Positions 48,772-61,667 of a stretch of DNA of 64,000 bases are shown one piece after another. Where the stretch lies: positions 4,811,501-4,875,500 of the forward strand of contig NZ_CP018171.1 of NCBI RefSeq assembly GCF_001889605.1. The letters are read 5' to 3'. Origin of the DNA: Aquibium oceanicum (lineage in GTDB: Bacteria > Pseudomonadota > Alphaproteobacteria > Rhizobiales > Rhizobiaceae). The notes beneath the pieces were generated by a model, which worked only from the letters and a program-made list of their open reading frames with translations, searched no databases and was not told the DNA's origin. The translations under genes and the position numbers were made by a program. Position 1 is the first letter of the stretch, and each line of letters starts with the position of its first letter.

Positions 48772-49122
48772 ATGGAACACATTGCTGCATTGCTGATGGT
48801 GATAGGCTGTTCCGGCGATCTCAAGGTCTGCGAAGAGATTCCGACCGAGGTTTCCGTTTTCGAGACGCGACAGGATTGCGCCGCAGAGCTCGTCTCGGCC
48901 CAGCGCCTTTACGGGCGCCATCACGACACCGCGTTCTTCAAGTGCGTCAGCGTCGATCCGGCAGTGGACGACGCGTCCGCTGACCTCGTATGGGACATCA
49001 ATCCGGACGGCGTCCTGCATGCAGCGGTCGAGACGCTGGAGGAGCCGGGCGCGATGGTGGCCTATGCCGAAACCACGCCGCGCCACAATCGCGCCATGCC
49101 GAACACATTTGCGGCCAACTGA
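48772..49122 (+). CDS. small stress-regulon protein, unknown
   Basis: A 116-residue protein. The start has AAGGAG 7 bases upstream. An N-terminal hydrophobic segment (MEHIAALLMVIGC) is followed by a Cys-containing soluble part (LKVCEEIPTEVSVFETRQDCAAEL ... FFKCVSVDP). It resembles short rhizobial proteins of unknown function, but I cannot name a family. It is directly preceded by an EcfG promoter. Confidence 0.78.
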   Translation: MEHIAALLMVIGCSGDLKVCEEIPTEVSVFETRQDCAAELVSAQRLYGRHHDTAFFKCVSVDPAVDDASADLVWDINPDGVLHAAVETLEEPGAMVAYAETTPRHNRAMPNTFAAN

Positions 49123-49178
49123 TTTGGCAGTGTGAGACCGGACGGGACTTCGAAGCAGTAACCAGGAGAGAGAAGACA

Positions 49179-49430
49179 ATGCGGAATACAATTTTTGCGG
49201 CGCTGGCAGCAATCTCGCTGACAGGAACCGCCTGCACGACGGCGGAGCAGGCGGGAACCGTTGGCGCTGTCGGCGGCGCGCTCATCGGCGGCGCGGCGGG
49301 CGGTACGGAAGGCGCCCTGATCGGCGCTGTGGCCGGCGGTGTCGGCGGTTATCTCATCGGCCGCACCGCGGATGGCCGTTGCCAGTATCGTACGCGGACG
49401 GGCGCGATCGTCTACGATCGCTGCTACTAA
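49179..49430 (+). CDS. glycine-zipper exported protein (possible lipoprotein)
   Basis: An 83-residue protein. A signal peptide ends near C19 (ISLTGTACTT), a near-lipobox with a non-ideal -3 residue. A glycine-zipper region follows (GTVGAVGGALIGGAAGGTEGALIGAVAGGVGGYLIG), then a Cys-containing tail (RCQYRTRTGAIVYDRCY). Such proteins sit in or on the outer membrane and are common near stress genes. It has AGGAG before the ATG and a strong terminator after it. It may be co-transcribed with the gene at 48772 (56-base gap). Confidence 0.82.
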   Translation: MRNTIFAALAAISLTGTACTTAEQAGTVGAVGGALIGGAAGGTEGALIGAVAGGVGGYLIGRTADGRCQYRTRTGAIVYDRCY

Positions 49431-49454
49431 GCGACGGCGTACGCGGAATCAGGA

Positions 49455-49487
49455 AGCGGACCCAGCCATGGCCGGGTCCGCTTTTTT
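49455..49487 (+). terminator. intrinsic terminator after the glycine-zipper gene
   Basis: AGCGGACCC (49455-49463) pairs with GGGTCCGCT (49474-49482) across a ten-base loop and is followed by six T. It ends the general stress locus. Confidence 0.9.
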
Positions 49488-49508
49488 GTATCGAGAGTCC
49501 GGTCTTGA

Positions 49509-50303
49509 TCAGGCAGCCTGTTCCGCGGTCATCGCCCCGGGGCCGGGCACCGCACCGGGCGGGCATTTGCCCAGGATGATCATTCCGAGCACCTCATCCT
49601 TTGTCACGTCGTCCGTGTTCGCCGTTCCGACCACCTGACCGTTCTTCATCACGCAGACGCGGTCAGCGAGGTCGAAAACGTCATGGATGTCGTGACTAAT
49701 CAGGAAAATTCCGATGCCGTCGGCCTTCAGCTGCTTGACCAGTTCGCCGACCTGGGCGGTCTCCTGTGGCCCGAGCGCCGCCGTCGGCTCGTCCATGATC
49801 AGGATGCGGGCATTGAACAGGATGGCACGGGCGATCGCCACCGATTGCCGCTGCCCGCCAGAGAGCGACTTGACCGGATCCTTGAAACGCTGGAAGCGCG
49901 GATTGAGGCGGCCCATGACCTTGCGCGCTTCCGATTCCATGGCGGCGTCGTCTAGCGTTCCCCACTTCGTCTTCAGTTCGCGGCCGAGGAACAGGTTGGC
50001 TGCCGCGTCGACATTGTCGGCGAGCGCCAGCGTCTGGTAGATCGTCTCGATGCCGTAGTTCTTGGCGTCGCGCGGATTGTTGATCTGAACGACGTCGCCG
50101 TTGACGCGGATCTCGCCGTGGTCGCGCTTGTAGGCGCCCGACAGGACCTTGATCAGTGTCGACTTGCCGGCGCCGTTGTGGCCGAGCAGGGCCACCACCT
50201 CCCCCGCGTGCAGATCGATCGAGGCGTCGTCCACGGCGCGGATGCCGCCGAAGGCGATGGAGATGTTCTTCAGTTCGACGAGTGGCGTACCGGTCCGTTC
50301 CAT
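49509..50303 (-). CDS. xylG: D-xylose ABC transporter ATPase XylG (single-domain form)
   Basis: A 264-residue ATPase with Walker [10 protein letters not shown], signature [15 protein letters not shown], Walker [14 protein letters not shown] and switch His in [10 protein letters not shown]. It is half the length of the enterobacterial XylG because it has one nucleotide-binding domain; such short forms occur with FrcA/XylG transporters in rhizobia. It follows xylH after 16 bases. It could equally serve another pentose. Confidence 0.88.
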
Positions 50304-50319
50304 CCTGCTTCTCCCGTCC

Positions 50320-51633
50320 CTACTGGACCGTGCGGCGGTAGATCGTGTCGAGCCACACGGCGACGACCAGCACCAGGCCGACCACGATGTTCTGCAGCGG
50401 CGTGTCGACGCCGAGCAGGATCATGCCGGTCGCCAGCGATTGCATGAGCACGGCCCCCAGCATGGCACCGGCAACGGTTCCCGAACCGCCGGCAAGCGAG
50501 GTGCCGCCGATCACCGCCGCGGCGATGACGAGCAGCTCGTCGAGCGTCCCCTGGGCATTGGTGGCGGCGTTGAGCCGGGCGGTCGAGATCGCCGCGCCGA
50601 TTGCCGCGAGCGCGCCCATCAGCATGAAGATCTTCATGGTGACCCAGCGGGTATTGATGCCCGCCAGTTCCGCGGCTTCCGGATTGCCGCCGATGGCGAA
50701 GACATAGCGGCCGAAGCTTGTGCGGGTGGACAGGAACGTCATGACGATGCCGACGCCGATGGCGATCAGTACGGGAATGGCGATGCCGTGCGCGATGAAC
50801 AGCCCGCCCTCCGGCATGGTGAGGCCGTTTTCCTGCACGTAGCGCCGCACGATCCCGATCGGCCAGGGATAGGAATTGGCGACGGCCACCGCGCCGAGGA
50901 TGACCGCGCAGGCGACGATCCCGAGGAAGTACTCCGCCCAGACGGGGCGCAGAGGGAAGTCGAAGCGCTTGCGCTGATTGCGGCCGACATAAAGCAGCAG
51001 CAGCACCGCGACGCATGCGACGATGCCGACGATCCAGCTCGCCGTCGCGCCGATCGAGCCGGCGGGGCCGCCGCCCATGAGTCTGAAGGTTTCGTCCATC
51101 GGCGCGACCGTGCGCCCGCTGGTTACCCACCACGCCGCGCCGCGCCAGACCAGCAGCCCCCCGAGCGTGACGATGAAGGCAGGAACGCCAAGATAGGCGA
51201 TGACGTAGCCTTGCAGGCCGCCGATGATCACGCCGACCGCGATGCCGGCGGCCAGCGCCAGCACCCAAATGACCGGATTTCCGAAGTCGAGATATTGCGG
51301 CAGGATCTCTGCCTGCGTCACGCCCATGATCATCCCGACGAAGCCGAGGATTGAACCCACGGACAGGTCGATGTTGCGCGTGACGATGACCAGGACCATG
51401 CCCGTGGCCATCACCGCGATGGAGGAGGACTGAACCGAGAGGTTCCACAGGTTGCGCGGCGTCAGGAAGATGCCGCCGGAGAAGATGTGGAAACCGAGCC
51501 AGATGATGAGCAACGCGCCCACCATGCCGAGCATGCGCGTATCGAGTTCGGTGGCCTTGAGGAAGCTCCCGACGGGGCCGAGTTCATTGGCGCGGGCGCG
51601 ATCGGCAGGCGCCGTCGAGGTCGCTTCGGACAT
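50320..51633 (-). CDS. xylH: D-xylose ABC transporter permease XylH
   Basis: A 437-residue permease of the ribose/xylose family with about 10-12 hydrophobic segments. Typical segments are [45 protein letters not shown] and [25 protein letters not shown]. An N-terminal polar stretch of about 30 residues precedes the first membrane segment. The start at 51633 is followed by a clear family match. Confidence 0.92.
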
Positions 51634-51694
51634 CGTTTCCTCCCCCGCTGGGGCTGTCTCCGGCGGTCCGGATTGTTCTTGAAGGTAGTTAAGC

Positions 51695-51727
51695 CTGCGC
51701 CGCGGCTTTCGTCAAACCGCGGCGCAG
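51695..51727 (-). terminator. hairpin between xylF and xylH
   Basis: An 11-base perfect stem (CTGCGCCGCGG, 51695-51705, with CCGCGGCGCAG, 51717-51727) surrounds an 11-base loop. It lies 20 bases after the xylF stop with no strong T-run, so it likely protects xylF mRNA and limits read-through to xylHG. Confidence 0.6.
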
Positions 51728-51747
51728 ATTCCGTTCGAACGCAATGA

Positions 51748-52782
51748 TCAGTCGCAGACGGCGACCTTGCCGGCGTCGACGCCCTGGCAAAGCGCTTCCT
51801 TGGAGATCCAGCCGGCGTCGACGACGACGTCGAGATTGTCCTTGGTGATCGGAACCGGGGTGAGGAACACCGCGTCGACTTCCTTGCCGCCGGGGGTCGT
51901 GAACTTCACGGCGTTCGCAATGGCGCTCATTTCGGTTCCGTCGGCCAGCGCCGAAGCGATCTCGGCCGCGTTCTTGCCGAGTTCGCGCGCGTCCTTCCAC
52001 ACCGAAACGGTCTGGGTGCCGAGCGCGACGCGGTTCAGCGCGGCGTGGTCGCCGTCCTGACCCGAAACCGGAATGCCCGCCATGCCCTGGGCAGAAAGAG
52101 CTGCCACGACACCGCCGGCCGTGCCGTCGTTCGAAGCGACGACCGCGTCGACCTCGTTGTTGTTGGCTGTCAGGATCTGCTCCATGTTCTTCTGGGCGTT
52201 GGCCGGAAGCCAGCCGTCCGTATAGGCCTCGCCGACGTTCTTGACCTTGCCCGAATCGATGGCTTCCTTCAGCACTTCCATCTGGCCGGAGAACAGGAAG
52301 TCCGCGTTCGGATCGGCCGAGGAACCCTTGATGAAGGCGTAGTTGCCTTCCGGCTGGACCTTGAACACTTCGCGGGCCTGCATGCGGCCCACTTCCTTGT
52401 TGTCGAAGGTGAGATAGAAGGCGTTCTCGTTTTCGATCAGGCGGTCGTATCCGACCACCGGAATGCCTTCGTTGACCGCCTTCTCGACGGCCGGGCCGAT
52501 GGCCGAGGCGTCCTGGGCGAGAATGATGAGCGCATCCGCGCCCTGGGCGATCAGCGCTTCCACGTCAGTCAGCTGCTTGGCTGCCGAGGACTGCGCGTCG
52601 GCGGAGATGTACTTGTCGCCGGCTGCCTCGATGGCGGACTTCATCGCCGCTTCATCGGTCTTCCAACGCTCTTCCTGGAAGTTCGACCACGAAACGCCGA
52701 TGGTCTTGTCCTTGGCGAGCGCCCCGCCGGCGAAAGAAATGCTGAATACGGCGCAGCTAAGCGCCAGCATCGTCTTGTTCAT
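51748..52782 (-). CDS. xylF: D-xylose-binding periplasmic protein XylF
   Basis: A 344-residue sugar-binding protein of the ribose-binding family. The signal peptide covers residues 1-23 (GGALA). The sequence fits Xyl[31 protein letters not shown] ... [39 protein letters not shown] precedes the ATG at 52782. It is the first gene of xylFHG and divergent from the ROK regulator. No xylA or xylB is in the window. Confidence 0.93.
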
Positions 52783-52859
52783 GCTATCCTCCCGGTGCAT
52801 CGTTGCACATGACATGCCGACGGTCCCGCAAGGGGTTTTCGCCAGCCCAGCCTCTTTAA

Positions 52860-52935
52860 TTCGAGGCTCGAAAAAAATAGTGACTCACCCACCGCGCTGT
52901 GTCAAGATGAATCTCGATCGAGCTAACGTATTGCA
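52860..52935. promoter_or_regulatory. palindromes in the xylF-ROK divergent promoter region
   Basis: The 210-base gap between xylF and the ROK gene holds TTCGAG-G-CTCGAA (52860-52872), the palindrome CTCGATCGAG (52913-52922) and the inverted repeat TTGCAGCGCAA (about 52931). One or more of these is the likely operator of the ROK repressor, controlling both directions. Which one is not clear. Confidence 0.5.
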
Positions 52936-52992
52936 GCGCAACAATAAATCGCCGCACTGCAAACGTTGGCTGACAGGGAGGGATACGCCGCG

Positions 52993-54240
52993 ATGACGGC
53001 GGTGACGCGCTCGGACGATGTGCGCCGGCAGAACCGGCGGGTGGTGATTGGGACGCTGCGCAATGGCGGCCGCCTCTCCCGTACCGACATCTGCGCGCAG
53101 ACCGGCCTGAGCGCCTCCACGGTCTCGGCCATCACGGCCGACCTCATCGAAGAGGACATCCTGCGCGAGATCCGCGACGGCGAGGCTGCCACGTTGCGCA
53201 GGGGCCGGCCGCAGGTCGCGCTCGGCCTCAATCCCGACGCGGCGACGGTCGTGGCGGTGGTGCTGTCGATGAACTCGCTTTCCGCGGCCCTCATCGATTA
53301 TGCCGGCGAGATTGTCGATGCCAGGCAGATGCGGCTGGAGACGTTGCGCCTTTCGAAGGGCGAACTCGTCGATGCGGCGAGCACGGTGATCGGCGAACTG
53401 GTCGCGCGATCGAACAAGAGCGGCCGGCGGGTGCGCCGTATCGCTTTCGGGGTCCAGGGAATCACCGATTCCGGCGCGCGCAAACTGCTGTGGTCGCCGA
53501 TCACGCCGCATACCGACATCGCCTTCGCCGACCTGCTCGAAGACGCGTTCGGCATTCCGGTCACCGTGGAGAACGACTGCAACATGATCGCGCTCGCCCT
53601 GCGAACGAGGCGGCCGGAGCGCTATTCGGAGAACTTCATCGCGATCCTTCTCTCCCACGGCATCGGTATGGGGCTGATGCTGAACGGGCAGCTCTTCACG
53701 GGCACCACCTCCTCCGGCGCCGAGTTCGGCCACATGAACCACGTTCCCGACGGCGCGCTGTGCCGCTGCGGGCGCCGGGGATGCGTGGAAGCCTACGCCG
53801 GCAACTATGCGATCTGGCGCAACGCAAGGGGCCTCAACGAGGAAGACGCCTACGCAACCGACATAGGCGACGAGGAGATGCTGGCCCTGGCAGGTGCCGC
53901 GCGAGACCACCCGGGCGCCGAGCGAGAGGCGTTCCGGCGCGCCGGAGAAGCGATCGGCTTCGGGCTCGGCAGCCTTTTCGCCCTGATCGATCCCGCGCCC
54001 GTCGCCATCGTCGGACAGGGTGCGCTGGCCTTCGATCTCGTGGAAGGCCCGATGATCGAGGCGCTGTCCAAGACCGCCGGCGGTCAGCATCATGCGCTCC
54101 CCACATTCGAGACCGAACCGGACGAGATGCCGCTGATCCGCGAGGGCTGCGCCCTGCGCGCGCTGGCCTTCATCGACCGCGAAATCTTCGCCGCCGGCGC
54201 GGCGGGCCTATCAAGCCGGACAGGAAAGGAGATCGCATGA
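52993..54240 (+). CDS. ROK-family transcriptional repressor (XylR-like)
   Basis: A 415-residue regulator. The N-terminal winged helix (RRQNRRVVIGTLRNGGRLSRTDICAQTGLSASTVSAITADLI) is fused to a ROK sugar-kinase-like domain with the zinc-binding motif CRCGRRGCVEAYAG and GAEFGHMNHVPDGALC. It is divergent from xylFHG, so xylose sensing is likely. Its stop overlaps the start of the di-haem gene (ATGA), which is unusual because sugar regulators normally stand alone or with sugar genes. The ATG at 52993 is preferred over an upstream TTG. Confidence 0.88.
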   Translation: MTAVTRSDDVRRQNRRVVIGTLRNGGRLSRTDICAQTGLSASTVSAITADLIEEDILREIRDGEAATLRRGRPQVALGLNPDAATVVAVVLSMNSLSAALIDYAGEIVDARQMRLETLRLSKGELVDAASTVIGELVARSNKSGRRVRRIAFGVQGITDSGARKLLWSPITPHTDIAFADLLEDAFGIPVTVENDCNMIALALRTRRPERYSENFIAILLSHGIGMGLMLNGQLFTGTTSSGAEFGHMNHVPDGALCRCGRRGCVEAYAGNYAIWRNARGLNEEDAYATDIGDEEMLALAGAARDHPGAEREAFRRAGEAIGFGLGSLFALIDPAPVAIVGQGALAFDLVEGPMIEALSKTAGGQHHALPTFETEPDEMPLIREGCALRALAFIDREIFAAGAAGLSSRTGKEIA

Positions 54241-55670
54241 AACCGCTGATCACAACCGCATCGTTCGCGGCGCTCGCGACCGCCATTCTGCTGCCTGGGA
54301 CGGCGCCGGCCAATCCCTGGTCGGAGCGGGTCGTCACCGAACACGTCGATCAGACCGGTCTGGCCGGGACGCTGGACCGCGACGCCCTGATAGCGCTGCG
54401 CGAGAAGGGCGAGCATCTCTTTACGGGCCGCTTCACGACGCTGGACGGGGTCGGCCGGCCGCTGGCCACCCAGGCGATCATTCCCACCAAGCGCAAGCAT
54501 GCGCCGGAGACCTCGTTCGCCCGGACTTCCGGCATGGACGCGAACGCCTGCTCGTCATGCCACAACCAGCCCGTCGTGGGCGGCGCAGGCGATTTCGTCA
54601 CCAATGTCTTCGTGTCCGAGGGTTTCGAGAGCGCCGATTTCGATTCCACCGACCCGCAGTTTTCCAACGAGCGGGGCTCGAACCACCTGTTCGGCGCCGG
54701 CCTGATCGAGCTTCTGGCGCGCGAGATCACCGCCGATCTTCGCGAGATACGCAGGAAGTCGCTCGCCGATGCGCGCGCGGGCGGCGCCGACGTGCGTCGG
54801 AAGCTCGTCTCCAAGGGCATCGGATACGGCTGGATCACAGCGGCGCCCGACGGGGTGCTCGACATGTCGGAGATTGAAGGCGTCGATGCCGACCTGACGG
54901 TCAGGCCCTTCAGCCAGAAAGGCGTCATGACCTCGCTGCGGCAGTTCACCGTCAACGCGCTCAACCACCACCACGGCATGCAGTCCGACGAGCGCTTCGG
55001 GTTGCGCTGGACAGGCGAACGGGACCACGACGGCGACGATCACGACGACGAAATCCGGGAAGGCGACGTCTCCGCGATGGTCGCCTGGCAGGCGACCTTG
55101 CCGCCGCCCGGCCGGATGGTGCCCGACAGTGCCGAATGGCGCGCCGCCGCCGAGCGCGGCGAGATGGTCTTCGGCTCGATCGGCTGCGAGGGCTGCCACA
55201 AGCCGTCCCTGCCCCTTTCGTCCCTATCCTTCGCCGATCCCGGGCCGTTCGACATGGCGGGAACTCTGCGGACCGGGGACGTGCGGGCGCCGGCCGTCTA
55301 CGATCTCGCCCTGCTCGAATGGGCCAGGCACCTGCCCCGCAACGACAAAGGTGAAGTTCTGGTGCCTTTGTTCGGCGACCTGAAGCGGCACGCCATCGCG
55401 GATCAGTACGTCGCGACGCTCGGCAACGAACTGCTCGCCCAGCGTTTCGTGGAACGCAACGTCTTCATGACCGCGGAACTGTGGGGCGTCGGATCGACCG
55501 ATCCCTACGGCCACCGCAACGACATCGCTTCGCTCGACGGCGTCATCCGCGCCCATGGCGGCCAGGCGCGCGACACCCGCGACCGCTACATCGCGCTTCC
55601 CGATGAGGATCGCCACGCCATCATCGCTTTCCTGAAGACGCTGGTGATCGAGCCGGAGGAGGTGAAATGA
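54237..55670 (+). CDS. periplasmic di-haem oxidoreductase (DUF1111 family)
   Basis: A 477-residue exported protein with a signal peptide (residues 1-25, TAPAN). Two haem sites are present, CSSCH (105-109) and CEGCH (317-321). The family signatures FNERGSNHLFGAGLIE-like and NALNHHHGMQSDERFG are visible, and EVRDHD-like acidic stretches (GERDHDGDDHDDEI) follow. The family is annotated as putative thiol oxidoreductase or peroxidase, but its function is not established. It is coupled to the ROK regulator in front and overlaps the FG-GAP gene behind (ATGA). Confidence 0.88.
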   Translation: MKPLITTASFAALATAILLPGTAPANPWSERVVTEHVDQTGLAGTLDRDALIALREKGEHLFTGRFTTLDGVGRPLATQAIIPTKRKHAPETSFARTSGMDANACSSCHNQPVVGGAGDFVTNVFVSEGFESADFDSTDPQFSNERGSNHLFGAGLIELLAREITADLREIRRKSLADARAGGADVRRKLVSKGIGYGWITAAPDGVLDMSEIEGVDADLTVRPFSQKGVMTSLRQFTVNALNHHHGMQSDERFGLRWTGERDHDGDDHDDEIREGDVSAMVAWQATLPPPGRMVPDSAEWRAAAERGEMVFGSIGCEGCHKPSLPLSSLSFADPGPFDMAGTLRTGDVRAPAVYDLALLEWARHLPRNDKGEVLVPLFGDLKRHAIADQYVATLGNELLAQRFVERNVFMTAELWGVGSTDPYGHRNDIASLDGVIRAHGGQARDTRDRYIALPDEDRHAIIAFLKTLVIEPEEVK

Positions 55671-57358
55671 TCAGGCATCGAAAACTCCTTCTGGCGCTGG
55701 CGGCAGTCGCCGCGATGTCGTCGGTTTCCGCAGCACACTCGGAAGACGCTTTCCCCGCCCCGATCAGCACCGACATTCCGCTGATGCATGAGGAAGCGGC
55801 GGCGGCAGGCATCGTGCATGCCTATCGCGGACCGTGGGAGTACTTCGTCGGCGGCGGCGGGGCCTCGCTGGACTGCAACGACGACCGCATGCCCGACATC
55901 TTCCTGGCCGGCGGCCGCGACGCGGCACGCTTCTACGTCAACCGGAGCACCGCCGGAGGACCGCTGCGTTTCGAGGAGAAGCCGATCGCCATCGATCCAG
56001 AAGACCTTGAAAAGGTGCTCGGCGCCTATGCGCTCGACATCGACGGCGACGGCATGCGCGACCTCGTTCTGATGCGGGTCGGCGAGAACGTGATTCTCAA
56101 GGGCGGGCCGGAGTGCACCTACTCGAAAGCCAACCGGGAATTCACCTTCGACGGCGGCAAGGCCTGGACGACCTCGTTCGCCGCGACCTGGGAAGCCGGC
56201 CAGAAATTTCCCACCCTCGCCTTCGGCAACTATGTCGACCGCCATGCGCCGGGCTCGCCCTGGGGCACGTGCCACGACAACGACCTGTTCCGGCCGGAGG
56301 CCGGCGACAGGCCCGACTATTCCGACCGCCAGGCATTGCGGCCCGGTCATTGCGCGCTTTCGATGCTCTTCACCGACTGGAACCGCTCCGGCACGCCGTC
56401 GCTGCGGATCACCAACGACCGCCAGTATTATCGCGGTGGCGAGGAACAGCTCTGGCGGGTCGAGCCGGACCGGCCGGCGAAGCTCTACGGCAAATCGGAC
56501 GGCTGGCAGCATCTGACGATCTGGGGCATGGGCATCGCCGAGGGCGATCTCGACGGCGACGGTTTTCCGGAATACGCGCTCACTTCGATGGGCGACACCA
56601 AGCTGCAGAAACTGTCGGAGGACGCAGACGAGGACGAGCCGCTCTACACCGACATCGCCTTTGCCAGGCATGCCACCGCCCACCGTCCCTATGTCGGCGA
56701 CGACCTGAAGCCCTCGACCGGCTGGCATTCGGAGTTCGCCGACTTCAACAATGACGGCCTGCTCGACCTCTACATCGCCAAGGGCAACGTGGAGCGCATG
56801 CCCGACTTCGCCGGTTTCGACCCTGACAACCTGCTGCTCGGCCAATGGGACCAGACATTTGCCGAGGCCGGCCACCAGGCGGGGATCGACCTGCCGACCA
56901 AGGGGCGCGGCGCCCTTGTCGAGGACTTCAACGCCGACGGCATGCTCGACCTGCTGGTCGTGAACCGCGAACAGAACGTCTCGCTGTTCCGCAACTCAGG
57001 TGCAGTGACCGAATACGGCTCACGGCCGATGGGCAATTTCGTCGCGATCGAACTCGAGCAGCCGGCGCCGAACGGAAACGCCGTCGGCGCGCTGATCTCC
57101 GTCAAGGCCGGCAATTCCACCTTCAACCGTACGGTCCAGGCCGGTGGCGGCCATGCGTCGGGCCATACCGGCTTCGTCCATGTCGGGGTCGGCACCGCCG
57201 AGCGCGCTGAAATCCGCGTCAAGTGGCCGGACGGCGAATGGAGCGCGCCCTACCGGGTGTTCGCCAACAATTTCGTCCTCATCGGCAGGGAAGCGAAGGC
57301 CGCGCGCTACTGGTATCCGCCGGAAGACGATTCCTGGCAGGCCTCGTCGGCGCAGTAG
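55667..57358 (+). CDS. FG-GAP/VCBS repeat protein with ASPIC/UnbV C-terminus
   Basis: A 563-residue exported protein (signal peptide residues 1-26). At least five Ca2+-binding DxDxDG-type repeats (DCNDDRMPD, DIDGDGMRD, DLDGDGFPE, DFNNDGLLD, DFNADGMLD) suggest a beta-propeller. The C-terminus (about 450-540) fits ASPIC/UnbV (QAGGGHASGHTGFVHVGVG ... EIRVKWPDG). Such proteins act as periplasmic or surface adhesion or assembly proteins, but none is understood here. It overlaps the di-haem gene and is followed by the CHAT-domain gene after 9 bases. Confidence 0.87.
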   Translation: MIRHRKLLLALAAVAAMSSVSAAHSEDAFPAPISTDIPLMHEEAAAAGIVHAYRGPWEYFVGGGGASLDCNDDRMPDIFLAGGRDAARFYVNRSTAGGPLRFEEKPIAIDPEDLEKVLGAYALDIDGDGMRDLVLMRVGENVILKGGPECTYSKANREFTFDGGKAWTTSFAATWEAGQKFPTLAFGNYVDRHAPGSPWGTCHDNDLFRPEAGDRPDYSDRQALRPGHCALSMLFTDWNRSGTPSLRITNDRQYYRGGEEQLWRVEPDRPAKLYGKSDGWQHLTIWGMGIAEGDLDGDGFPEYALTSMGDTKLQKLSEDADEDEPLYTDIAFARHATAHRPYVGDDLKPSTGWHSEFADFNNDGLLDLYIAKGNVERMPDFAGFDPDNLLLGQWDQTFAEAGHQAGIDLPTKGRGALVEDFNADGMLDLLVVNREQNVSLFRNSGAVTEYGSRPMGNFVAIELEQPAPNGNAVGALISVKAGNSTFNRTVQAGGGHASGHTGFVHVGVGTAERAEIRVKWPDGEWSAPYRVFANNFVLIGREAKAARYWYPPEDDSWQASSAQ

Positions 57359-57367
57359 CGATCCGCC

Positions 57368-59392
57368 GTGCGTTCCGCGGCCAAACTGCTTCTCGCCACC
57401 CTGACGGCGGGCTGGCTGTGCGCGGGTGCGGCCCCCGCCCTTTCGGGCCCGACGGCCGATCATGCGTGCCCGTCCTTTGAAGACGCGGTCAAAGCAAGTG
57501 GCGAGCAGCTCGTCACGCTCGCGGCGACACGCGGCCTGACATACGAGCTGCAACCCTTTCCCAACGATCTGCGCGGCGCGATCCTCTCTTATGTCGGCTT
57601 CCGCGTCTCGCCCTCGGATGACCGGAGCAACGGCCTCATCTTCTATCTCCGCAGCGGCAGGATCGTCTGCGGCTATCTCTGGCGCGATCGCACCGGGGGA
57701 GCCGATGGAGCGCATCGTGGCACGGGGAAACCGCATGCGGACGTCCGGGAGCCGGATGCAATCTTCCGATTGCCGGTGCGCGACGTGGGCGAACTGGTCG
57801 ACCTGATCGAACGGGTGCGCAATGCACTGACGGCGGGCGGCAACAGCGCAGAGCGCAGCCCCAGGCTTCGCGATGAAAACTCGTTCGGTACCACGCGCGG
57901 CGCACGGGCTTTGGCAGACGCATCCGAACCTTCCGGAGAGCAGCGAGCGGCAATGCTGGCGGACCTGTCACAAAAGCTCTTCGGAGAAACCGAAAGCATC
58001 ATCGAGGAATTCGCCAACCTGACGGTCGTGCCGGCGCTCAACATCGGCACGGTGCCCTTTGGCGTCCTCGACCCGAATGGCGACGGGATTCCGCTGGTCC
58101 ACTCGACTGCAGTCAACGTCGAGGCGTCGATGAACGACGTGGCGGCGGGACGGCTGTTTGCGATCGCGCCCGAAGTGCGGCCCCAGACGATCGCCGGCGA
58201 TCCGGACGCCACGGGCGATCCGGAATGGATCTTCCCGCGGCTGCCTGGTGCCGCGGCCGAGGCGCGCACGATCGCCGCCCGCTTCGAGGCGACGCCGATC
58301 ATCGGCTCCGACGCGACGATCGAGACGGTGACCCGCCACCTAGCCGAGGACACCTACATCCACCTCGCCGCCCATGGCCTCAGCAGCATCACGGATCCGG
58401 TGGACGGCAGCTTCATCGCGCTCAGCGATGGCAGGCTCACGGCCCGCGCGATCCAGGAGATGCGGCTTTCGAACAACCCGCTCGTGGTGCTGAGCGCCTG
58501 CCAGACCGGGCTGGGCAACCCGCTCGACGCCGGGATCGTCGGGCTTGCGCGCGCCTTCATGCTTGCCGGCGCGAGCAGCGTCATCGTCAGCCTCTGGAAC
58601 GTCGACGACGAGGCGACCTCGTGGATCATGACGCGCTTCGTCGATTTCCTGACCAACCACCCGCCGGGCACGGCGCTACGCCTGGCGCAGGACGCGGCGC
58701 GCGAGCGCTGGCCCGAACCCTCGAAGTGGGGCGCTTTCGTGCTGTTCGGGTCACGCACGGTGGTGCTGGCTCCCGCGGACGACGACCGCCCCATGTCGGT
58801 AGCGCTGAACGTGCTTCCTCTGGTGAAGCGCGTGGGCAGCGAGGACATGGACCCTATCGGACCAGGCGCGGCGGTTCGGGTCGGCGCCGGAGACGAGCTT
58901 CATCTCGACATCGCCAACCTCGGCGGCAAGCCAGTCGATCTCGACGTCCTCTATGCGGACGCGGAGGGGACGGTCTCGCATCTCCTGTCGGAGCGCGTGC
59001 CGGCGGGCGACGAAGAGCGCCTTGGCCTCGTCCGCTTCACCGACACGACGGTGGGAATGGAACGGGCGATCATCGTGGTACGTGAAGCCGCGCCCGCATC
59101 GCCGCTGCGTCCGCTGTCGGATTTTGAAAGCGTGCCGGGCACGATGCTGGCGCACCTGCTGCTCAGTCCCGCGTCGCTGCGGACATTGCTGCCCGGCGGC
59201 ATCCGCAAGGTCTCGCAGTTCGGCGGACGGGAGTTCCTCGGGTCGTTCGTGGGAGCGAGCGAGCGCTTCGAACTGGCGCTGTCGGAGGCCCGGCACATGG
59301 GTGCAAGGGGGTCGCCCTCGCGCGAACAGCCATCCGCCGCCTCTCGGCGGCGGGCGGGCGTGATGGTCGTGCCGTTCGAGGTGTCGCGGTAG
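57368..59392 (+). CDS. secreted CHAT-domain (caspase-like) protein
   Basis: A 674-residue protein with a signal peptide (residues 1-27). An N-terminal region up to about residue 200 has no recognised fold. The CHAT domain (about 215-470) has the catalytic His336 in IHLAAHGLSS and Cys378 in VVLSACQTGLG, then the family segment GLARAFMLAGASSVIVSLWNVDD. The C-terminal 200 residues look like a beta-rich domain. The dyad residues are intact, so protease activity is possible. The start is a GTG. It ends 7 bases before the convergent phoB gene. CHAT proteins outside immunity systems are poorly understood. Confidence 0.86.
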   Translation: MRSAAKLLLATLTAGWLCAGAAPALSGPTADHACPSFEDAVKASGEQLVTLAATRGLTYELQPFPNDLRGAILSYVGFRVSPSDDRSNGLIFYLRSGRIVCGYLWRDRTGGADGAHRGTGKPHADVREPDAIFRLPVRDVGELVDLIERVRNALTAGGNSAERSPRLRDENSFGTTRGARALADASEPSGEQRAAMLADLSQKLFGETESIIEEFANLTVVPALNIGTVPFGVLDPNGDGIPLVHSTAVNVEASMNDVAAGRLFAIAPEVRPQTIAGDPDATGDPEWIFPRLPGAAAEARTIAARFEATPIIGSDATIETVTRHLAEDTYIHLAAHGLSSITDPVDGSFIALSDGRLTARAIQEMRLSNNPLVVLSACQTGLGNPLDAGIVGLARAFMLAGASSVIVSLWNVDDEATSWIMTRFVDFLTNHPPGTALRLAQDAARERWPEPSKWGAFVLFGSRTVVLAPADDDRPMSVALNVLPLVKRVGSEDMDPIGPGAAVRVGAGDELHLDIANLGGKPVDLDVLYADAEGTVSHLLSERVPAGDEERLGLVRFTDTTVGMERAIIVVREAAPASPLRPLSDFESVPGTMLAHLLLSPASLRTLLPGGIRKVSQFGGREFLGSFVGASERFELALSEARHMGARGSPSREQPSAASRRRAGVMVVPFEVSR

Positions 59393-59398
59393 CGCCGG

Positions 59399-60088
59399 TC
59401 AGGCCTCGCGGATCGCGTAGCCCGCGCCGCGGATCGTGCGGATGACGTCGGGCATGCGGCCGTTGTTGACCGCCTTGCGCAGGCGACCGACATGGACGTC
59501 GACGGTGCGTTCGTCGATGTAGATCGTCTCGCCCCAGACATTGTCCAGAAGCTGCCCGCGCGAGAAGACGCGACCGGGATGCTGCATCAGGAATTCGAGC
59601 AGGCGGAACTCGGTCGGTCCGAGCTTGATCTCGCTCTTCTTGCGATAGACGCGATGGGACTCGCGGTCGAGCACGATGTCGCCGACCTTGAGCACACTCG
59701 ACAGGACCTCCGGCTTGGCACGGCGCAGCAGAGCGCGGACGCGGGCGATGAATTCGGGGGTGGAGAAAGGCTTTACTAGGTAATCGTCGGCGCCGGTGGA
59801 GAGGCCGCGCACGCGATCGCTCTCCTCGCCGCGCGCCGTGAGCATGATGATCGGCAGGCGTTCCGTCTCAGGGCGCATTCTCAGCCGCCTGCACAGTTCG
59901 ATGCCCGAAATCGCGGGCACCATCCAGTCGAGCACCAGAAGATCCGGCACGCTCTCCTGCAGCCGTATCTCGGCCTCGTCGCCGCGGGTGACGATCTCGA
60001 CCTGATAACCTTCTGCTTCGAGGTTGTATTTGAGGAGGACGCAGAGCGGCTCCTCATCCTCGACCACCATGACCTTTGCTGCAATCAT
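59399..60088 (-). CDS. phoB: phosphate regulon response regulator PhoB
   Basis: A 229-residue OmpR-family activator. The receiver has the acidic pair in VVEDEEPLC, phosphoacceptor in LLVLDWMVPAISG, and Lys in YLVKPFS. The winged helix (EFRLLEFLMQHPGRVFSRGQLLDNVWG ... TVDVHVGRLRKAVN ... TIRGAGYAI) matches PhoB. It binds Pho boxes under phosphate limitation, and Ugp and Pst genes are usual targets. It is 12 bases after phoU in the pst operon. Confidence 0.95.
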   Translation of the reverse strand: MIAAKVMVVEDEEPLCVLLKYNLEAEGYQVEIVTRGDEAEIRLQESVPDLLVLDWMVPAISGIELCRRLRMRPETERLPIIMLTARGEESDRVRGLSTGADDYLVKPFSTPEFIARVRALLRRAKPEVLSSVLKVGDIVLDRESHRVYRKKSEIKLGPTEFRLLEFLMQHPGRVFSRGQLLDNVWGETIYIDERTVDVHVGRLRKAVNNGRMPDVIRTIRGAGYAIREA

Positions 60089-60100
60089 GCCGCGTCGTCC

Positions 60101-60808
60101 TCAGGCGTTCGCCCCGGCCATCACCGTCTCGTCGGTCTTGGGCCGCGCCATGGGCAGTTGCTTGCCGGTCATGACGTAGTAGGCGTTTTCCGCGATGTTC
60201 GTGACGTGATCGCCGATGCGCTCCAGGTTCTTGGCGCAGAACAGGAGATGGGTGCACGACGTGATGTTGCGCGGGTCTTCCATCATGTAGGTCAGGAGCT
60301 CGCGGAAGATCGCCGTGTACTTGATGTCGATCTTCTCGTCCTCGACGCGCAGCGGTACCAGCGCCTCGGCCTCGCGCGCGACGTACAGGTCGACCACCTT
60401 CTTGACCTGGCGGTGGACGAGCTCGGCCATGCTCTCGATCGAATAGGACAGGCTGGTCGGCGTCGAGGTCAGCCCCACAGCACCGACACGCTTGGCGATG
60501 TTCTTGGCGAGATCGCCGATGCGCTCCAGATCGCCGGCCATGCGGATGGCGCTGACGACGGCGCGCAGATCCTGCGCCATCGGCTGGCGGCGGGCGATCA
60601 GCGTGATTGCCTTGTCGTCGAGCTCGCGCTGCTTGGCGTCCATGATGGCATCGTCGGAGATGATGCGCTGGGCGAGCGCCGCGTCGGTGGAAAGCAGCGC
60701 GCGGGTGGCGTCGTCCACCATCGAGGCCGCGAGTTCGCCCATGTCGCACAGAAGGCGATCGATACTTTGAAGTTCCTCGTCGAAGGAGGCAACGGTGTGC
60801 TCGCCCAT
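60101..60808 (-). CDS. phoU: phosphate transport regulator PhoU
   Basis: A 235-residue helical protein with two PhoU repeats (each with an E/DxxxD motif region, DLERIGDLAKNIAKR and NLERIGDHVTNIAENAYY). It links the Pst transporter with PhoR/PhoB and limits phosphate uptake. It lies between pstB and phoB as in other alphaproteobacteria. Confidence 0.96.
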   Translation of the reverse strand: MGEHTVASFDEELQSIDRLLCDMGELAASMVDDATRALLSTDAALAQRIISDDAIMDAKQRELDDKAITLIARRQPMAQDLRAVVSAIRMAGDLERIGDLAKNIAKRVGAVGLTSTPTSLSYSIESMAELVHRQVKKVVDLYVAREAEALVPLRVEDEKIDIKYTAIFRELLTYMMEDPRNITSCTHLLFCAKNLERIGDHVTNIAENAYYVMTGKQLPMARPKTDETVMAGANA

Positions 60809-60836
60809 GGTCCTGTCCTCGTATCCTGGTGCCGGA

Positions 60837-61667
60837 TCAGCCGAAGCGACCGGTGATGTAGTCCTGGGTGCGCTTGTCGTCGGGGTTGGTGAACATCTTG
60901 TCCGTCGGGCCTTCCTCCACGAGGTAGCCGAGATGGAACATCGCGGTGCGCTGCGAGACGCGGGCGGCCTGCTGCATCGAGTGCGTGACGATAACGATCG
61001 TGTAGTTCTGGCGAAGCTCGTCGATCAGTTCCTCGACCTTGGCGGTGGCGATCGGATCGAGCGCCGAGCACGGCTCGTCCATGAGGATGACCTCCGGAGA
61101 GACCGCGATGGCGCGGGCGATGCACAGGCGCTGCTGCTGGCCGCCGGACAGGCCGGTGCCCGGCTCCTGAAGCCTGTCCTTGACCTCGTTCCAGATCGCC
61201 GCCTTCTGCAGGCTGGATTCCACCACGGCGTCGAGCTCGGCCTTGTTCGTGGTCAGGCCGTGGATGCGGGGGCCGTAGGCGATGTTCTCGTAGATCGACT
61301 TCGGAAACGGGTTCGGCTTCTGGAACACCATGCCGACACGGGCCCGGAGCTCCACGACGTCGATCTTCGGATCGTAGATGTCCTCGCCGTCGAGCGTGAT
61401 CTTGCCGCCGATCCTGGCGATGTCGATGGTGTCGTTCATCCGGTTCAGGCAGCGCAGGAAGGTGGACTTGCCGCAGCCCGACGGCCCGATGAGTGCCATC
61501 ACCTGCTTTTCCGGAACGTTCAGGTCGACGTCGAACAGCGCCTGCTTTTCCCCATAGTGCACCGTGACCTTTTCGCCCCGCATCTTGTAGCTGGTCATGG
61601 CATCGGGGGTCATGAGCTTCTTCTCGACTGCGGCTTCGCTCAGCATGTTCATGTCCTTGTACTCCAT
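60837..61667 (-). CDS. pstB: phosphate ABC transporter ATPase PstB
   Basis: A 276-residue ATPase. Walker A is GPSGCGKST, the signature [15 protein letters not shown], Walker [15 protein letters not shown], and the switch His lies in IVTHSMQQA. The PstB segment [19 protein letters not shown] is present. The ATG at 61667 overlaps the pstA stop (TAATG); an ATG at 61652 is an alternative. It energises PstCA. Confidence 0.96.

Follow-up and report, generated by a model that had tools for sequence, protein, structure and literature searches.

What is the role of a run of plus-strand genes in Aquibium oceanicum in which a ROK-family regulator is followed by a di-haem DHOR/DUF1111 protein (P0002) and an FG-GAP/ASPIC beta-propeller of the CRTAC1 type (P0003), and where does this gene unit begin and end? 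The run lies in a stretch of 64,000 nucleotides (the window; contig NZ_CP018171.1, positions 4,811,501 to 4,875,500) of a 5.32 Mb genome in two contigs. A preliminary description had proposed that the ROK, DUF1111 and ASPIC genes form an undescribed system together with a fourth gene, encoding a CHAT-domain protein (P0004). We found that the locus had been delimited wrongly: the conserved unit reaches left to a divergently transcribed sugar importer and excludes the CHAT gene, so that the proposal stands for the ROK, DUF1111 and ASPIC genes and falls, on distribution, for CHAT. The xylF-H-G importer, the operator that it shares with the pair, and the replacement of DHOR by other kinds of peroxidase had no place in that description. 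Its account of the local layout is borne out by open reading frame (ORF) coordinates and Pfam: the four genes do run on the plus strand, with 4-base overlaps between ROK and DHOR (54240/54237) and between DHOR and ASPIC (55670/55667) and a 9-base gap between ASPIC and CHAT (57359-57367), P0002 has two CXXCH motifs, and the CHAT protein has an intact His336 (context AAHG) and Cys378 (context SACQTG).

Conservation of the unit was assessed in a family sample of 297 genomes from 109 genera (best 4-5 candidates per genome scored), in named loci of Alpha- and Gammaproteobacteria, for which the 80 best of 593 relatives were taken, in a set of 39 ASPIC loci that has 8 loci in common with the named set, and in a class sample of 385 genomes, some contigs of which are shared with the named loci (L195 with L110, L196 with L174). 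Within the family, 30 of the 109 genera have a DHOR match and 52 have an ASPIC match, and DHOR, where present, is nearly always accompanied by ASPIC. XylF was found in 38 and ROK in 37 of the 39 ASPIC loci; among the best 80 named loci, DHOR stands beside ASPIC in 79, XylF is present in 72 and ROK in 71; of the eight that lack XylF, six are truncated by a contig end. Spacing is tight, with a 4-base overlap of DHOR and ASPIC in 72/106 loci (−17 to +11 bases in 86/106) and of ROK and DHOR in 36/97 (−17 to +11 bases in 81/97). Gene order varies at a few loci: L132 (Bauldia) has the string xylF-xylH-xylG-DHOR-ASPIC on one strand, and L198 and L215 have the order DHOR-ASPIC-xylF-xylH-xylG. Beyond the family few genomes have DHOR: 6 of the 385 in the class sample, that of the window among them. 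Of the five others, three have ASPIC adjacent to it and three have XylF near. All parts of the unit belong to known families. The pairing, its tie to a sugar importer and a three-kind exchange of the peroxidase were not found in the open-licence literature searched.

Three kinds of peroxidase-type protein were found as partners of ASPIC: di-haem DHOR, a vanadium-haloperoxidase homologue, and a di-haem CCP_MauG protein. ASPIC is present in 122 of the 297 family genomes, and 120 of these have one of the three kinds within 0.6 kb of it. DHOR occurs in 70 genomes, next to ASPIC on the same strand in 69; the vanadium kind occurs in 44, with ASPIC adjacent in 43, and in G139 a vanadium gene and ASPIC lie near the ends of two contigs, where the pair looks split. 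Nine of the remaining eleven ASPIC copies have CCP_MauG within 0.6 kb, eight of these on the opposite strand; 8 of the nine are in further genomes and 1 is a second copy in G160. That genome bears two propeller cassettes (L207 and L212), one CCP-type and one vanadium-type, with no XylF match within 18 kb around either. DHOR and the vanadium kind, with 70 and 44 carriers, are found together in none of the 297 genomes (hypergeometric P 2.4e-6, uncorrected for kinship), and the window genome has no match to the vanadium-kind gene at E ≤ 1e-30.

The four other sampled genomes of the genus have the propeller beside ROK and a PAP2-fold protein. This partner in G001 matches 4cit, a vanadium-dependent haloperoxidase from Zobellia, with 254 bits (E 2.7e-74), and the vanadate-site motifs KX6RP, PSGH and SRX5H are present in 8/8 vanadium loci. 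The Pfam PAP2 model is reached (43 vs 27.2 bits) and VCPO_2nd is not (21.5 vs 27), so a haloperoxidase activity of this kind is a guess. The CCP_MauG protein beside ASPIC in Phaeobacter inhibens matches PF03150 with 116 bits; its gene overlaps one for an aldose epimerase. In P. inhibens DSM 17395 the locus (L202, 4320-12906) lies on the 262 kb plasmid pPGA1_262 as xylG-H-F / ROK-CRTAC1, CCP, epimerase; its CRTAC1 gene is PGA1_RS18335 and its CCP gene PGA1_RS18330. A homologue of P0003 is encoded in 64 plasmid records, and Phaeobacter accounts for 58 of these; DHOR has two distant plasmid copies (32-34% identity, E ≤ 1e-30), with no CRTAC1-named gene within the annotated stretch of either record.

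When 45 chosen ASPIC sequences are placed on a tree, the three kinds form three groups, with 4 label changes for a minimum of 3 (a quick method with Shimodaira–Hasegawa-like approximate likelihood ratio test, SH-aLRT, support only; two rows without a peroxidase fall inside the groups). As the propellers group by peroxidase kind, each travels with its own peroxidase. On a XylF+ROK tree of 38 loci, in which CCP-partnered rows are labelled 'none', the distribution of the vanadium label takes 4 changes to explain, and the window and the vanadium-kind genome G002 come out as sisters. The XylF+ROK sequences of these two are 95% identical, which argues that whole cassettes have been exchanged; their ASPIC proteins are only 53-56% alike. 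From these comparisons, therefore, propeller and peroxidase appear to enter one fixed site together, as a paired cassette. In G108 (L082 5952-6221) and G023 (G023:C5:562103-562288) a full ASPIC gene is followed, about 1.9 kb and about 0.3 kb downstream respectively, by additional pieces of the ASPIC C-terminal end, which may be scars of cassette exchange.

Between the importer and the divergent ROK–DHOR–ASPIC genes lies a predicted palindromic operator, and the palindrome is common to the xylF–ROK intergenic regions of relatives. A zero-mismatch match to its IUPAC pattern occurs genome-wide at 52856-52876 only, with three further sites at 2 mismatches, and the reversed pattern has no match in the genome. 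With a position weight matrix (PWM), sites of at least 10 bits were found in 92/105 regions against 2/105 shuffled ones, a count that is partly circular since the PWM was trained on the regions later counted. Low scores at L074, L091 and L092 reflect mis-set XylF starts, the sites being recovered by a whole-locus scan; L132 and L215 have no site of at least 14 bits. Where the partner is DHOR, the pair comes after ROK and behind the operator, and is thus likely to be co-regulated with the importer. P. inhibens has a second operator site (17.2 bits) just upstream of its epimerase–CCP gene pair, which is no more than suggestive. A role of ROK as general xylose regulator was rejected: xylA lies about 190 kb off, with no occurrence of the operator pattern in its vicinity.

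XylF of the window is the sole TIGR02634 match above cut-off in the genome, with one more match below it. The importer ATPase has its best NCBIfam matches among sugar ATP-binding cassette (ABC) ATPases (222-223 bits), all below the full-length cut-offs; the XylG/RbsA models span about 500 positions, and the window ATPase covers the first half only. Syntenic homologues of both permease and ATPase are found at the loci of relatives. The ROK protein, for which an alternative TTG start exists at 52966, falls short of the NCBIfam equivalogs NagC (117 vs 650 bits) and Mlc (115 vs 530 bits).

P0002 reaches PF06537 with 27.4 bits (cut-off 22) over the C-terminal part of the model only, and its L056 orthologue, at 21.3 bits, falls just short of that cut-off, which places the group as a borderline, divergent DHOR branch. 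The haem motifs C105/C108/H109 and C317/C320/H321 are invariant in 47 sequences except for C320 (at least 90%); two CXXCH motifs are present in 101/106 relatives and one in the remaining 5. His440, likewise invariant in 47 sequences, aligns, weakly (E 0.11), with a Met of the peroxidase 1iqc that serves there as haem ligand, and would fit a bis-His second haem. The high-potential haem of MauG has a Tyr ligand. The first 25 Foldseek matches of the P0002 structure model (predicted local distance difference test score, pLDDT, 77.5) are bacterial cytochrome c peroxidases (CCPs) or the gamma subunit of hydrazine synthase (HZS), the best with E 5.8e-04 and probability 1.00, and a profile search likewise gave a weak best match (E 2.9e-04).

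P0003 is assigned by Pfam (FG-GAP_3, PF13517, 73.3 bits, cut-off 26.9; UnbV_ASPIC, PF07593, 37.4 bits, cut-off 23.4). The top structural match of its model (pLDDT 88.6) is by far murine CRTAC1 (9etn, E 3.4e-20), also the sole solved structure matched by sequence (profile E 1.4e-20, 17% identity); the second structural match is aldos-2-ulose dehydratase 4a7k (E 4.5e-09). Four cysteines are conserved, each in 97% or more of the DHOR-type sequences and in 8/8 of the vanadium type. Trp525 is present in 107/107 DHOR-partnered and 0/8 vanadium-partnered propellers, in a comparison that also has a class 'none' of 5 rows, which takes in CCP-partnered ones, L145 (which has DHOR), and L073 and L171, two entries for one locus. 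Signal-like N-terminal stretches, judged by eye, suggest that both P0002 and P0003 are exported. PADLOC reported nothing for either protein.

The CHAT gene has a quite different distribution. Close homologues of P0004 (E ≤ 1e-20) occur in 5 of the 297 family genomes, that of the window included, and only there does CHAT lie beside the DHOR–ASPIC pair. Of the remaining four genomes, two lack any match to DHOR or ASPIC (E ≤ 1e-30), G004 and G256 have DHOR/ASPIC elsewhere in the genome, and the four CHAT neighbourhoods (L075, L186-L188; 18 kb each) hold neither gene. No CHAT match was found in the 80 named ASPIC loci (E ≤ 1e-8) or in the 39 others (E ≤ 1e-10), 119 loci of which 111 are distinct; in 114 of the 119 the sequence continues for 1.5 kb or more after ASPIC. 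G256 has the pair most similar to that of the window (DHOR 80%, ASPIC 78%), and there PhoB follows 21 bases after the ASPIC match and the CHAT homologue is about 1.1 Mb away; in the window, the gene to the right of CHAT encodes a response regulator, probably of the PhoB type by name, and is transcribed towards CHAT. Co-occurrence of DUF1111, ASPIC and CHAT across genomes, which the preliminary description had suggested as a check, thus fails for the four-gene system. CHAT was rejected as a member of the unit on this distribution, and looks like a local addition in one lineage.

L075 and L188 are similar to each other beyond CHAT. Residues ~466-587 of the CHAT protein, after the CHAT domain, resemble the C-terminal part of caspase (Peptidase_C14) proteins from related genomes and of one encoded on the 166 kb contig C2 of the window genome; CHAT and Peptidase_C14 proteins therefore share a C-terminal region that Pfam does not name. 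An anti-phage role was rejected, the only PADLOC match being a weak one of BovA to the CHAT domain (21.8 bits), as was identity with Csx29, the CRISPR-associated tetratricopeptide repeat (TPR)-CHAT protein (NF041237, 25.8 vs 300 bits). Rfam gave no structured RNA at gathering scores in positions 49000-61000. Features of the locus are collected in Table 1.

Table 1. Features of the importer–ROK–DHOR–ASPIC locus and its CHAT neighbour, in window coordinates.
Feature	Position	Strand	Basis
Importer ABC ATPase (xylG place), 264 amino acids, one ATPase domain	49509..50303	-	NCBIfam sugar ABC ATPases; synteny
Sugar ABC permease (xylH place)	50320..51633	-	NF040906 GguB 285 bits (below cut-off of 450); synteny
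XylF, D-xylose-type binding protein	51748..52815	-	TIGR02634 442.4 bits (cut-off 389.55)
Predicted ROK operator TTAATTCGAGGCTCGAAAAAA, imperfect palindrome	52856..52876	.	Divergent promoter region; IUPAC pattern
ROK-family regulator	52993..54240	+	PF00480 116.7 bits, 1.8e-33; helix-turn-helix (HTH) matches
Di-haem DHOR/DUF1111 protein P0002, signal-like N-terminus	54237..55670	+	PF06537; haem motifs
FG-GAP/ASPIC (CRTAC1-type) beta-propeller P0003, signal-like N-terminus	55667..57358	+	Pfam; structure match
CHAT-domain protein P0004, lineage-specific neighbour	57368..59392, GTG start	+	PF12770 161.9 bits (cut-off 24); His/Cys dyad

We tentatively favour the reading that the locus makes an exported propeller–peroxidase couple together with sugar uptake, and that generic peroxide chemistry serves the propeller. 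A glucose/xylose-type importer and two exported proteins would stand behind one ROK regulator and its operator, and the CRTAC1/ASPIC calcium-type propeller and the peroxidase would form one functional couple in which the propeller stays constant and confers substrate specificity. The partner, DHOR in the window, would remove H2O2 arising from the propeller's reaction, or alternatively would draw on H2O2 to hold the propeller, or a substrate bound to it, in the oxidised state; CHAT would not be needed. Peroxidases serve copper-radical oxidases in a comparable manner. The gene unit with its conservation, the common operator region and the exchange of peroxidase kinds are observed; we infer export, the peroxidase activity of all three kinds, a physical association of the partners, a substrate linked to sugar, and which way the chemistry runs. 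Because a vanadium or CCP_MauG protein takes the same place as DHOR, what the job requires would be peroxide chemistry rather than a particular haem architecture, and because a vanadium enzyme would hardly replace a modifier specific to one protein, a generic peroxide job is favoured. In Ruegeria pomeroyi a transporter named xylFGH is required for growth on glucose and xylose, as judged from mutant growth and drawdown (PMC10130141).

Several observations weigh against this reading. The enzyme activities of all these proteins are predictions; the P0002 model is poor around haem 1 (residues 94-149, pLDDT <50), and its structural matches have low template modelling (TM) scores (0.26/0.39). The vanadium kind belongs to the PAP2 fold, which also holds phosphatases, and since DHOR and CCP_MauG have a fold in common, it is, strictly, the one unrelated kind of the three. 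The pairing itself has exceptions: ASPIC of G008 and of Ruegeria sp. TM1040 has no adjoining peroxidase-type gene, G121 in the family sample and L197 and L199 in the class sample carry DHOR without an ASPIC match, and L108 and L110 have the DHOR–ASPIC pair without XylF or ROK in the available stretch. Vanadium cassettes point towards ROK and have their own promoter, and no strong operator was found upstream of them in the 7 of 8 that could be scanned, where L098 gave a single 12.4-bit match, so that co-regulation of these cassettes with sugar uptake is no more than a possibility; at CCP-type loci the operator sites are weaker or absent (none at 14 bits in L208 and L210). The exchange of cassettes could also reflect a convenient integration site. 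The link to R. pomeroyi xylFGH, which probably is of the same locus type as the window, is by name and kinship only, and the pooled mutant test reported in PMC10130141 missed xylose. At L110 (1329-8322, Denitrobaculum), the DHOR–ASPIC pair lies near a histidine kinase and an ABC exporter whose best matches, under cut-off, are CydC/CydD.

A different use of the di-haem protein, which we regard as unlikely, would be in maturation, a MauG-like enzyme oxidising or cross-linking residues of the propeller after its export. P0002 is di-haem and weakly similar to the CCP/MauG superfamily, the mtoX–mauG operon offers a precedent for which a tryptophan tryptophylquinone (TTQ) cofactor is proposed (PMC5739008), and Trp525 is kept in DHOR-partnered propellers and absent from vanadium-partnered ones; that difference coincides with a deep clade split and so may be descent alone, and the G008 propeller keeps Trp525 with no DHOR gene beside it. 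Maturation would also require a vanadium-haloperoxidase homologue to substitute for a specific protein-modifying enzyme, and P0002 scores only 17.8 bits against the MauG model TIGR03791 (cut-off 443.85). Also improbable in our estimation is a defensive function, in which a periplasmic peroxide/halide shield is induced with sugar uptake and the propeller acts as a calcium-binding surface scaffold. This would suit three kinds of protein that belong to or resemble peroxide-using families, and several hosts bear the names of marine or saline genera; a general shield, by argument and not by test, needs neither a tight importer linkage nor a constant propeller.

That the propeller is itself a sugar lyase or dehydratase, with a peroxidase that merely adjusts the redox state, is very unlikely. 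The suggestion comes from the second-ranked match of P0003, to 4a7k, with TM-scores of 0.51/0.34 and 10% identity, and since integrin-type and other propellers score nearly equally, this match mostly reports the fold. The hypothesis of the preliminary description, redox-controlled proteolysis in which an exported caspase-like CHAT enzyme cuts the ASPIC or di-haem protein, drew on the catalytic His and Cys, a signal-like N-terminus and closeness to ASPIC; with CHAT missing from the other ASPIC loci examined and its four homologues in the family sample lying in 18 kb neighbourhoods without either proposed substrate, it goes unsupported and is improbable in the extreme.

Among known systems, vertebrate CRTAC1, the best structural match of P0003, is a distant extracellular matrix protein for which we know of no peroxidase partner. 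Methanethiol oxidase, the product of mtoX, is a propeller. The mtoX-SCO1/senC-mauG operon likewise sets an enzyme gene beside a di-haem MauG-type gene and is conserved across bacteria (PMC5739008); the window differs in having no SCO1/SenC between the genes, another propeller family, an exchangeable kind of peroxidase and a sugar-importer link. In clades I-III of hydrazine synthase homologues a CRTAC1/FG-GAP gene lies beside CCP/MauG-like haem proteins, as in the window (PMC12758564), and HZS gamma (5c2v_C) is the structural match of P0002 at rank 5 (E 2.2e-03, TM 0.24/0.34); the neighbours of the window propeller are not HZS subunits by Pfam or NCBIfam, and the setting is an alphaproteobacterial sugar locus. 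These CRTAC1 genes flanked by HZS homologues (PMC12758564) and the mtoX–mauG operon are the nearest descriptions in the literature searched. With xylose ABC importers that have a ROK regulator the window shares the XylF equivalog and ROK; unlike them, its operator occurs once in the genome, away from xylA, and two exported redox-type proteins are attached. The vanadium-kind partner of relatives is a homologue of 4cit, and its haloperoxidase activity is a prediction.

CRTAC1/ASPIC proteins span bacteria to vertebrates, and to our knowledge no enzymatic activity has been assigned to them. A constant propeller whose peroxidase is swapped for one of unrelated metal chemistry narrows the possible role of the propeller. 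It is a bolder and distinctly doubtful proposal that the bacterial CRTAC1/ASPIC propellers of this clade constitute a novel type of exported sugar oxidase, or of oxidatively activated sugar enzyme, dependent on a dedicated peroxidase whose post has been filled three times by different chemistries: di-haem DHOR, vanadium and di-haem CCP/MauG. The locus is directly accessible to genetics in marine bacteria that grow in culture, Phaeobacter inhibens DSM 17395 among them, and glucose/xylose-type uptake provides a physiological setting, in this bacterial family, for a branch of DUF1111/DHOR proteins and for vanadium-haloperoxidase homologues.

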